NCBI GenBank assembly: GCA_017413105.1
Contig: JAFPVA010000007.1
Coordinates: forward strand, 1-36,996
Origin: Butyrivibrio sp.
Lineage (GTDB): Bacteria > Bacillota > Clostridia > Lachnospirales > Lachnospiraceae
DNA: 36,996 nucleotides
Direction: 5' to 3'
Part shown: positions 18,464 to 30,141 of the stretch, in pieces
Numbering within the stretch: the stretch's first letter is position 1
Layout of the letters: each line of letters starts with the position of its first letter
Program-made: the position numbers and the translations under genes
The notes under the pieces: generated by a model
Told to the model about the DNA's origin: nothing
What the model saw: the letters and a program-made list of their open reading frames with translations, nothing else
Database searches by the model: none

Positions 18464-18498
18464 CTATTTTGCTGTCGCGAAAGCGACTTTACATATAT

Positions 18499-18571
18499 GC
18501 GATAGTAGCTTAGTTGGTAAAGCGCCACCTTGCCAAGGTGGAGACCGCGGGTTCGAGCCCCGTCTATCGCT
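18499..18571 (+). tRNA. tRNA-Gly (GCC), copy 1
   Basis: A 73-base cloverleaf: acceptor GCGATAG/CTATCGC with U discriminator, anticodon arm CCACC TTGCCAA GGTGG giving anticodon GCC, and a T arm containing GTTCGAGCC. CCA is not encoded. An identical copy lies inverted at 30032-30104. The following CTTTTTTAT serves as terminator and is also shared by both copies. Confidence 0.97.
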
Positions 18572-18576
18572 CTTTT

Positions 18577-18924
18577 TTATTGTCTATTTTTCCATTCGGA
18601 AAAAGCTTTTTCCAATATTTCATCAACGTCAACGCCGATTTCATCAAGTCCCTCTGCCTTTACCAGACAGACCTCATTTATTCCATAAAAGCCCTGAGCA
18701 AGTGCCTTGACATAACCAAATCCGTATTCATCAGAAAAGATTGGGCCTCCGGCAGTTGTAACATAGGTAAGCCTTTTGGCTCTGCAAAGTCCTACCGGAA
18801 TCCCTTTGTCCGAGTACTTAAAGGTAACTCCTATGACATTTATCTGCTCGAAATATGCCTTTAGGATTGCGGGGAAGGACATGTCCCAGTAGGGCGCAGC
18901 AACCACACTGCTGTCACTGATTAT
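18577..18924 (-). pseudogene. C-terminal fragment of FMN-dependent NADH-azoreductase
   Basis: About 110 residues match the C-terminal half of AzoR-type flavodoxin-fold quinone/azo reductases: VAAPYWDMSFPAILKAYFEQ, VGVTFKY-like INVIGVTFKYSDKG, and VTTAGGPI. The family is normally about 200 residues. The N-terminal half, with the phosphate-binding loop, is absent. Upstream in frame, the similarity stops near 18924, where the stop codon of the neighbouring gene lies, and a TAG follows at 18943-18945. The frame can start only at a GTG (18906) without a ribosome site. The 3' end is just 5 bases from tRNA-Gly. I read it as a remnant truncated by the event that brought in its neighbour. Confidence 0.75.
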
Positions 18925-19998: not shown

Positions 19999-20859
19999 TT
20001 ATGAACAGGTTTTTTTCCGTGACATCATGAACTCTCGTACATTGTGTGATTCCTCAAGATCTAACGAAAAGCCAAGTTTCTCAGAGACAAAAACAGAAAG
20101 CTCCTCAAAAAAGTCATACATCAAAAAGAGCTTCTCCCACATATCCTCGTAGCTTCCGCTTGGGAAAATACCCTCAAATCGAGTCATCTCATCGTGTGTA
20201 AGATAGTTTTTTAAATACTTGCTGCATGCACCGGTGGTAACCTGAAAATCATTGTCTATTCCAATTTTCCAGTTGATCATTTTGATGAACATATCCATCA
20301 TATACTGTTCCATCATACGTCGCGCATAATAGAATTCATGCCTGCACAGGCCCTTTGTGACGTAATTACTGATCCAGCGGAATTCATTGACTGTACCAAA
20401 GAATTCAAATTCACTGGGCTTTTTAATGTAAAAGCACTCTTTCGAAGTTATCTCAACAAGCTGTGGAAAGTTATCTTTATTGACAAGCACTGTTCTGGGC
20501 TCATTAAAATCTTTTTGTTTCTCTATTTCGCTCACATCAATAAATGTAAGGTCAATCCGATTGCCATCTTTGTATTGTGTAAGGAAAGCATACCGCGACC
20601 TGCCATTATAATCGTATGGCTCATTATAGTAGTCATCCGGAGTCTGCATAATAAGAATCTCACCAAACCGTTTCATATAGTTGTGGTCTTTTGTAAACTC
20701 CCTGATGTCTGAAACAAAGAATGTAATATCAAAATCGGAAAATTCGTCATGCACTGCGCCCTTGGTAACATTTGACACTTCCATTGTTGCAGCACGAATA
20801 CGATCATCCTCAGTCACAGTATTCAGAATAAGATCATACATCTCGTCGTAAGTCTTCAT
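19999..20859 (-). CDS. ANT(6)/AadK-like nucleotidyltransferase, altered GS motif
   Basis: A 286-residue protein of the streptomycin 6-adenylyltransferase (AadK/AadE) family by length and motif order: DRIRAATMEVSN, EFSDFDITFFVSDI with metal-binding D42 and D44, ILIMQTPDD and GNRIDLTFIDV. In AadK-type enzymes the first motif reads EGSR; here it is EVSN, so the nucleotide-binding glycine and the arginine are replaced. The metal aspartates remain. Activity against streptomycin is therefore doubtful, and the protein may have another substrate or be inactive. It sits in the tRNA-bounded accessory segment, leftward, divergent from the LysM-NadD gene. Confidence 0.75.
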   Translation of the reverse strand: MKTYDEMYDLILNTVTEDDRIRAATMEVSNVTKGAVHDEFSDFDITFFVSDIREFTKDHNYMKRFGEILIMQTPDDYYNEPYDYNGRSRYAFLTQYKDGNRIDLTFIDVSEIEKQKDFNEPRTVLVNKDNFPQLVEITSKECFYIKKPSEFEFFGTVNEFRWISNYVTKGLCRHEFYYARRMMEQYMMDMFIKMINWKIGIDNDFQVTTGACSKYLKNYLTHDEMTRFEGIFPSGSYEDMWEKLFLMYDFFEELSVFVSEKLGFSLDLEESHNVREFMMSRKKTCS

Positions 20860-21022
20860 ATCATTTTCCTTTATTTTTATATGGTTTTTCCGGACATTTA
20901 CCTCATTGTATCATTTATATATAAATGGAAAAAGAATATTGAAAAGACATTATCTGGAATTGGAAAACCGTTTATACAAATTTAACTAATCTTTTCTGAA
21001 CATGAATGATACAATCTACACA

Positions 21023-21047
21023 AGGGGAGCGTTGTCTCCCTTTTTTT
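21023..21047 (+). terminator. Hairpin plus T-run in the leader of the LysM-NadD gene
   Basis: GGGAG (21025-21029) pairs with CTCCC (21036-21040) around a 6-base loop, extendable by A-U and G-U pairs, followed by seven T. No plus-strand gene lies upstream, because the neighbour is divergent. The structure therefore looks like a leader attenuator or the end of an unannotated short RNA. A TACAAT box at 21009-21014 lies just before it. Confidence 0.6.
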
Positions 21048-21081
21048 GTTTGCAGCTTCGTTCCTATCAGAGAGGTGTCCT

Positions 21082-22032
21082 ATGAGAAATAAAGTTCAAG
21101 CCTTTTTAGCTACAATCTTAGCTCTTACAATGTTTTTTCTCACGACAATGTCCGTATGCGCATCCGATGTACAGCTTGTTAAGGAGACCACTACATATAC
21201 TGTAAGAAATGGAGATAATCTCAGCAAACTGGCAAAGATAAAGCTGGGTGACAGCAGTCGCTGGAAGGACATTTATGAATGGAACAAAGATGTAATTAAA
21301 GATGTAAATCTCATTTATCCCGGAACAAAGCTTGTATTTCAAGAGGCGATTCCTTTAAAGCGCATCGGTGTTCTGGGTGGAACATTTGACCCTATCCATA
21401 ATCAGCATGTGGCTGTTGCAGCAGCTGTTTACCGGGAACTGGCATGTGACGAGGTATGGCTTATGCCAAACGGTGTGCCTCCCCACAAGCAGGACCGGAA
21501 GATAGCCAGCGGGAAGGACAGAATAGCAATGATCGAATATGCCATAGCTGATTACCCATACATGAAAGTGTGCACTTATCAGGTGGATCAGGGGGGATTA
21601 TCCTATGTTGGTCAGGACTTTGAGCAGTTTAATAAAATGTATCCCAACACTGATTTTTACTTTGTTATCGGTGCGGACAATGCATACACCATTGATAAGT
21701 GGCTATACTTTGACCTTTTGATCCAGAATTGCAATATTGCAGTGGCGGGAAGGGAAGTACAAGGTCAGGAAAAAACTCTTGCTGAGCAGATTGCTTATCT
21801 GAACAGCACTTATGACCTGAATATCGTGAGTCTCCAGTTCCAGAGCGAGCCAGTTTCAAGTACTTTGGTAAGAGATAAGCTAAAAAATGGTGAAGATGTC
21901 TCGGAATACATTAACCAAAATGAGCTGAACTACATTAAGGCTAATGGGCTTTATGACACTGTTCCGGATAATGTCATACCTTTTCCTTCGGAACCTTCCG
22001 GTGCCAACGAAGCACTTCCCAATGCCGGGTGA
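21082..22032 (+). CDS. Secreted LysM-NadD fusion (nicotinate-nucleotide adenylyltransferase-like)
   Basis: A 316-residue chimera. Residues 1-27 are a Sec signal peptide (basic MRNK, a hydrophobic stretch, probable cleavage after VCA). Residues 38-86 form a LysM peptidoglycan-binding domain (YTVRNGDNLSKLAKIKLGD to YPGTKLVF). Residues 93-295 form an apparently complete NadD-type adenylyltransferase: VLGGTFDPIHNQH, PPHK (133-136), GADN (197-200) and the SSTLVR motif (259-264). The canonical HxGH is HNQH here, with Gln for Gly. The ATG at 21082 follows AGAGAGG; a longer TTG form would run through the T-run. NadD normally makes NaAD from NaMN and ATP in the cytoplasm, so an exported, wall-bound version has no standard role. 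Confidence 0.85.
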   Translation: MRNKVQAFLATILALTMFFLTTMSVCASDVQLVKETTTYTVRNGDNLSKLAKIKLGDSSRWKDIYEWNKDVIKDVNLIYPGTKLVFQEAIPLKRIGVLGGTFDPIHNQHVAVAAAVYRELACDEVWLMPNGVPPHKQDRKIASGKDRIAMIEYAIADYPYMKVCTYQVDQGGLSYVGQDFEQFNKMYPNTDFYFVIGADNAYTIDKWLYFDLLIQNCNIAVAGREVQGQEKTLAEQIAYLNSTYDLNIVSLQFQSEPVSSTLVRDKLKNGEDVSEYINQNELNYIKANGLYDTVPDNVIPFPSEPSGANEALPNAG

Positions 22033-30020: not shown

Positions 30021-30031
30021 GCATAAAAAAG

Positions 30032-30104
30032 AGCGATAGACGGGGCTCGAACCCGCGGTCTCCACCTTGGCAAGGTGGCGCTTTACCAACTAAGCTACTA
30101 TCGC
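30032..30104 (-). tRNA. tRNA-Gly (GCC), copy 2
   Basis: Base-for-base identical to 18499-18571 in reverse orientation. The identity extends past the 3' end through the T-run, so the inverted repeat covers 18499-18580 and 30023-30104 (82 bases). Anticodon GCC, U discriminator, no encoded CCA. Confidence 0.97.
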
Positions 30105-30141
30105 ATTTATATGATGTTGTCTTTACCGCGACAACAAATTG

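Follow-up and report, generated by a model that had tools for sequence, protein, structure and literature searches.

Introduction

Adenylyltransferases that build NAD are regarded as intracellular housekeeping enzymes. Export of an ATP-using nucleotide enzyme has been described for alarmone synthetases: SaEAS is exported and acts outside cells on ATP, and the exported alarmone synthetases of Streptomyces combine extracellular action with a low Km for ATP (both PMC12691689). LysM is not mentioned in the main text of that paper. Our study describes a single gene, here called LysM-NadD, in which a predicted signal peptide and a LysM domain precede a NadD-type nucleotidyltransferase domain. It lies on contig C8 of a Butyrivibrio sp. 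assembly (G000), in a stretch of 36,996 nt that was analysed as a whole and is referred to as the window. We know of no earlier lead in bacteria to a NadD derivative that is exported, tethered to the wall and changed at its acceptor site; our literature searches listed none, and no paper listed by those pairing LysM with NadD concerned such a fusion.

Results

The gene and the elements upstream of it, all on the forward strand, are listed below in order of position.

21022..21043, + strand: hairpin and T run resembling an intrinsic terminator, 38 nt upstream of the ATG
21070..21075, + strand: GAGAGG, ribosome-binding-like site, read by eye
21082..22032, + strand: LysM-NadD open reading frame with its ATG at 21082, encoding 316 aa and closed by a stop
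21082..21162, + strand: residues 1-27, a likely Sec signal peptide ending at VCA↓S, by eye and hydropathy
21196..21336, + strand: LysM domain, residues 39-85, Pfam PF01476
21355..21957, + strand: NadD-type nucleotidyltransferase domain, residues 92-292, from profile, PDB-sequence and AF2/Foldseek matches
21376..21408, + strand: GGTFDPIHNQH signature, residues 99-109, with HNQH at 106-109
21478..21489, + strand: PPHK, residues 133-136, a motif that the assembly's own housekeeping NadD lacks
21580..21621, + strand: residues 167-180, a changed segment adjoining the nicotinate site, with E167Q, T176V and T179D
21856..21873, + strand: SSTLVR motif, residues 259-264
21958..22029, + strand: C-terminal tail of 24 residues after the NadD domain, pLDDT below 50 for residues 298-316

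The frame from 21082 to 22032 holds no internal stop, in agreement with the initial annotation, which had proposed a single uninterrupted frame of 316 aa, and its GC content and codon distance are ordinary when compared with 25 window genes. An alternative in-frame TTG occurs at 21046, immediately 3' of the terminator-like hairpin. The hairpin is a possible leader attenuator or boundary element, but it is not significant, as the region holds 4 such sites against a shuffled mean of 4.2. Rfam at gathering thresholds returned two tRNAs and nothing else.

Both domains scored above curated cut-offs. Pfam placed LysM at residues 39-85 (28.3 bits, cut-off 20.9) and CTP_transf_like at residues 97-265 (79.7 bits, cut-off 21), and it detected these two domains only, with no RelA/SpoT-type synthetase, toxin or delivery domain. 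Two NadD equivalog profiles of NCBIfam were also exceeded, NF000840 (156.3 bits, cut-off 150) and TIGR00482 (154.8 bits, cut-off 112.45), and phmmer against PDB sequences returned NadD chains on top (best 1.4e-30) and LysM chains further down. By eye, the N-terminus has an RNK start, a hydrophobic core and a VCA↓S cleavage-like site; the best 15-residue hydropathy window reaches 2.22 at residue 7, compared to 1.21 beyond residue 40, and a LysM protein of the genus genome G026 gives a 40 % match over residues 1-84 that covers the signal part. Residues 1-27 are thus likely to form a Sec signal peptide, as predicted from these features. The exported-looking architecture of likely signal peptide, LysM and NadD that the initial annotation had read from this frame was recovered, together with all the motifs that it named in the translation (GGTFDPIH, PPHK, SSTLVR and HNQH).

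The AlphaFold2 prediction gives a well-modelled NadD fold. When residues 91-290 are divided into 20 blocks of ten, 14 blocks have a mean pLDDT of at least 90 and the rest fall at 70-89. Foldseek returned 3e27_A as the best match (E 2.1e-20, TMt 0.89), and the best 50 rows were all NadD. The LysM part has no confident AlphaFold2 model, because no aligned row spanned LysM. LysM passes directly into NadD, with '...LVFQEAIPLKRIGVLGGTFDP' where an ordinary NadD starts like 'MKRIGIMGGTFDP', and the junction coincides with the beginning of NadD (LKRIGVLGG compared to MKRIG...).

Kept and altered residues were compared with a set of 58 canonical NadDs, comprising 28 genus loci, the assembly's own NadD and 29 family loci; locus L034 was left out for want of an open signature frame. 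At the columns conserved in at least 95 % of rows, LysM-NadD keeps 20/25, whereas the worst canonical row keeps 23/26 in a leave-one-out comparison. The five departures are A116V, L122C, E167Q, T179D and I195V, and two further changes, T176V and Q108, occur at columns under the 95 % threshold. The domain had been described at the outset as a complete-looking NadD, and this holds for its length and fold but not for several positions that are invariant in the 58 canonical NadDs. HNQH, which had been flagged, is unusual in part: the Gln at position 108 is unique against the 58 rows (G in 31, A in 25, V in 2, and G in phage rows), but both His residues are kept and Asn is the usual letter at its place (44/58).

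Position 167 is Gln in LysM-NadD and Glu in 58/58 canonical rows, position 176 is Val against Thr in 51 and Ser in 7, and position 179 is Asp against Thr in 58/58. Eleven phage NadDs were also aligned, all of which have Thr at 176, while position 179 is changed in two of them and position 167 is Asp in two. The 167-179 segment aligns with Tyr84-Thr85-Thr88 of E. coli NadD, and position 176 aligns with Thr85, the neighbour of Tyr84. PMC8035330 reports that the Y84V/Y118D pair shifts E. coli NadD towards NMN. For M. tuberculosis NadD, a docking paper (PMC8562812) places Thr86 in the NaMN sub-site and His17, His20, Ser167, Thr169 and Arg172 in the ATP sub-site; we infer that this Thr86 corresponds to residue 176 of LysM-NadD. 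Residues H106, H109, S259, S260, T261, R264 and W207 are kept, with H106, H109 and R264 invariant in 58/58 canonical rows. With both stacking residues, W207 and H135, in place, a pyridine nucleotide may still fit. Judged from the alignment, the acceptor side looks re-made and the ATP side mostly kept, Q108 being the exception. Changes beyond the acceptor side are Q108 itself, in the HxGH signature, and L122C, and the altered conservation and a long branch (below) could reflect decay.

Assembly G000, which has 4.45 Mb in 327 contigs with a completeness of 94.91 and a contamination of 7.28 %, gave five CTP_transf_like matches, LysM-NadD included. The second, ordinary nadD for which the initial annotation had proposed a check was found at C84:21587-22093 (193.1 bits), between yhbY/obg and yqeK in an obg-yhbY-nadD-yqeK cluster, and because it lies elsewhere in the same assembly LysM-NadD is an extra copy. 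The two genes share one assembly, which does not prove their origin in one cell. Both yhbY and yqeK were nearby in 58/58 canonical nadD loci tested (L007-L064; 29 genus, 29 family), and the window around LysM-NadD has no match to obg, yhbY or yqeK.

PPHK was present in 0/29 genus NadDs read (the genome's own included) and in 28/29 family NadDs, although the family rows were the best 29 of 352 by similarity to the query, so that this sample is enriched for PPHK types. A 59-row tree placed the LysM-NadD domain as sister to 14 NadDs of other family genera (support 91/84) on the longest branch of the tree (2.26), whereas the genome's own NadD nested within the genus. An origin from the NadD of the genus itself was disfavoured by this placement and by the sharing of PPHK, but constraining the domain to group with the genus gave an AU p of 0.07, which rose to 0.47 once L053 was added. 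Phylogenetic inference suggests that the domain was likely gained by transfer from another lineage.

A second LysM-NadD was sought in samples of the genus, family and phylum, which overlap. Among 79 genus genomes (own included), 70 had any match, and LysM and NadD were both covered in G000 only; a match in G007 over residues 20-292 was rejected as a fusion, as it crosses two stops and a canonical NadD begins inside it. Of 397 family genomes, 352 had a match at 1e-20 with no LysM-NadD among the matches listed, and where a family genome had a pair of NadD-like matches (G123, G232 and G315) neither extends into the LysM part. The phylum search used query residues 28-165, chosen so that a LysM-NadD fusion should rank first, and matched 321 of 398 genomes; among the matches listed there was no fusion, the own protein scored 310 bits and the next 72, and some matches of 50-60 bits extended into the last part of LysM (e.g. 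G816). Protein-derived pattern searches gave 8 matches in GTDB genome contigs and 3 in viral contigs, none of them relatives, and a narrow degenerate DNA pattern of LysM followed by GGTFDP occurred once in the window and in none of the genome or viral contigs, collections from which near genomes may be missing. Matches were present in 22 phage and 67 plasmid records without any LysM-NadD fusion; Monoglobus NZ_OY725739, alone in reaching a query coverage of 80 %, resolved into two genes, the end of a zinc-ribbon protein followed by nadD. Homologues of the same architecture, for which the initial annotation had suggested a search in other members of the family, were thus not found among the matches in any sample or in the contig, phage and plasmid searches, an outcome that it had listed as refuting its view, although similar signal-LysM modules were found on other enzymes. 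The one known copy of the architecture lies on a single contig of a fragmented and contaminated draft, which is the main weakness of the finding, and from one copy selection upon it is not measurable. As a separate observation, the viral contigs L115, L118 and L120 carry NadD fused to an apparent NAD-synthetase domain (by eye).

Residues 1-90 match 14 places in 11/79 genus genomes. Heads of nucleotide or phosphoester chemistry occur at 12/14 of these places, LysM-NadD included and three by eye. The places other than LysM-NadD are as follows.

G000:C160:33001-33915 (L081:2002-2916): alarmone-synthetase-like head, the second half of which matches SaEAS 8vx3 (E 2.9e-17)
G026 and G015: HAD-like hydrolase heads, scoring under the Pfam cut-off in G026 and over it in G015
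G070, G036, G042 and G053, and by eye G046 and G028: 5'-nucleotidase heads
G015, and by eye G058 (a contig-edge fragment): tyrosine-phosphatase/SAM_HAT_C head
G056 and one further G026 locus: no recognised head

The NadD, alarmone-synthetase-like and two HAD-like proteins are the only ones with LysM directly after the signal, and G000 has four LysM matches in all. The signal-LysM-alarmone-synthetase-like protein on C160 had a full-length match in none of the other genomes (135 searched). Two genus genomes encode proteins in which signal and LysM are followed by a long acidic repeat and a HAD-like hydrolase (L083 and L080). Two phage-derived-looking proteins (by eye), L131:301-2052 (583 aa) and L136:1477-3261 (594 aa), match the alarmone-synthetase-like head in their C-terminal part.

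In the window, a streptomycin-adenylyltransferase family gene (19999-20859, - strand; PF04439, 313.5 bits; AadK-like) is divergent from LysM-NadD, and downstream a convergent MATE gene ends 17 nt from the LysM-NadD stop, which leaves no immunity gene directly 3'. Upstream frames were listed only from 80 aa up. Two identical tRNA-Gly(GCC) genes lie within a 95-nt, 96 % inverted repeat (18486-18580 and 30023-30117), and this pair flanks 11.4 kb that contain LysM-NadD, MATE, the AadK-like gene, an Fe-ADH and two ABC transporter genes. Stretches around uvrC from 13 relatives contained no tRNA genes, and the 7.7-17 kb after uvrC in these relatives had no orthologs of window genes, with only 24-26 % matches in L077. 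A contaminant origin found no support for the core of C8: G000 has a single uvrC match, which shares 95 % identity with the uvrC of the same-genus genome G060. In G056, the gene at L110:862-1674 encodes a probable signal peptide, a domain of no recognised family and LysM at the C-terminus, and immediately downstream of it lies an Fe-ADH that is 90 % identical to that of the window. This pair was rejected as a shared locus, since LysM-NadD matched in 0/10 Fe-ADH loci, two of which (L192 and L193) have nearly no upstream sequence. Elsewhere in G000, contigs C25 and C308 (loci L194 and L195) carry by eye a near-duplicate pair of 5'-nucleotidase-like and methionine-aminopeptidase-like genes, which suggests mixed strains in the assembly.

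Discussion

Our tentatively preferred interpretation is that LysM-NadD is a NadD derivative exported and tethered to the wall, which most likely remains active as a nucleotidyltransferase but serves a different acceptor. The protein would be exported via Sec and held in the cell wall by its one LysM domain. Its NadD-derived domain would still use ATP or another NTP, for example from lysing neighbours if ATP is assumed to be present outside, and the nucleotidyl group would pass not to the canonical NaMN but to a different acceptor, such as NMN or another phosphorylated compound. On this reading the protein would act on nucleotides outside the cell, probably without handling NaMN as an ordinary NadD does, and its role may lie in extracellular nucleotide chemistry or signalling, as with exported alarmone synthetases. 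LysM-NadD would then be one head of a LysM-displayed set of enzymes for nucleotide and phosphoester chemistry in the genus.

Salvage, adenylylation and sensing are the candidate roles that the initial annotation put forward. It is rather unlikely that the protein is an exported yet ordinary NadD/NMNAT, making NaAD or NAD from NaMN or NMN and ATP outside the cell as a form of pyridine-nucleotide salvage. Two NadD equivalog cut-offs were passed, the stacking pair is intact and the LysM-bearing 5'-nucleotidases of the genus point to surface nucleotide processing; however, neighbours of the nicotinate site that are invariant in 58/58 canonical rows are altered, which argues against plain NAD salvage, and dinucleotide synthesis outside the cell seems wasteful. 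A non-catalytic pseudo-enzyme or sensor, whose NadD fold would bind ATP or NAD-like ligands on the cell exterior, is unlikely: although LysM-NadD has the fewest conserved columns of all rows, the longest branch and Gln at the G/A place of HxGH, it retains H106, H109, S259, S260, T261 and R264.

Misassembly into a chimera, or a fusion without function that arose recently in a single strain, would explain the lone occurrence, and the 327 contigs, 7.28 % contamination and near-duplicate pair on C25 and C308 make such an accident conceivable. We nevertheless regard it as distinctly unlikely, because the frame is open through a junction placed at the NadD start, it has stayed intact despite the long branch, and a second signal-LysM-enzyme gene of similar layout is present in the genome. 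That sibling, with its alarmone-synthetase-like head, is also what brings to mind an antibacterial effector, in which signal and LysM would display a nucleotide-consuming domain that harms neighbours on entry, as alarmone-synthetase toxins do. The sporadic distribution of the module and the listing of LysM among the adhesion domains of polymorphic toxins (PMC3482391) accord with this role, but Pfam found no delivery or toxin domain, the convergent MATE gene leaves no room for an immunity gene downstream (upstream, frames under 80 aa fell outside the list), and NadD has no mention in the first 300,000 characters of PMC3482391. An effector role is accordingly very unlikely.

Returning to the wall-tethered derivative with a changed acceptor, a broader and more speculative model, to which we assign a small but real chance, is that the genus shuffles the signal-LysM module onto nucleotide enzymes as a wall-surface nucleotide system. 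The NadD-derived head with its re-made acceptor site and the alarmone-synthetase-like head would turn the ATP of lysed neighbours into extracellular dinucleotide or alarmone signals, which the LysM 5'-nucleotidases and phosphatases of relatives would clear. If the preferred interpretation is true, LysM-NadD would be the first lead known to us in bacteria to a NadD derivative of this kind, it would extend the 2025 finding of bacterial alarmone synthetase export, and it offers one directly testable protein.

Compared with characterized NadDs (B. anthracis 3e27/2qtr, B. subtilis 1kam and E. coli 1k4m), LysM-NadD shares the fold, length, GGTFDPIHxxH and SSTxxR motifs and stacking Trp and His, but it differs in its signal peptide, LysM, Q108, Q167, V176 and D179 and in its position outside the obg-yhbY-nadD-yqeK cluster of a genome that also has an ordinary NadD. 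With LysM-carrying polymorphic toxins (PMC3482391) it has in common a LysM wall-binding module on a multidomain protein, the secretion of which is predicted here, whereas it has no known toxin domain or recognised immunity gene. The LysM of the genus 5'-nucleotidases and phosphatases is closely similar (37-51 % identity of the matched part), although these proteins are hydrolases rather than nucleotidyltransferases and, the two HAD-like proteins apart, have a central or C-terminal LysM. Like the exported alarmone synthetases (SaEAS, 8vx3; PMC12691689), LysM-NadD is an isolated gene that combines a Sec signal, in this case a predicted one, with a nucleotide enzyme that uses, or here would use, ATP, and while its catalytic fold is unrelated to that of SaEAS, a signal-LysM relative of SaEAS is encoded in the same genome.
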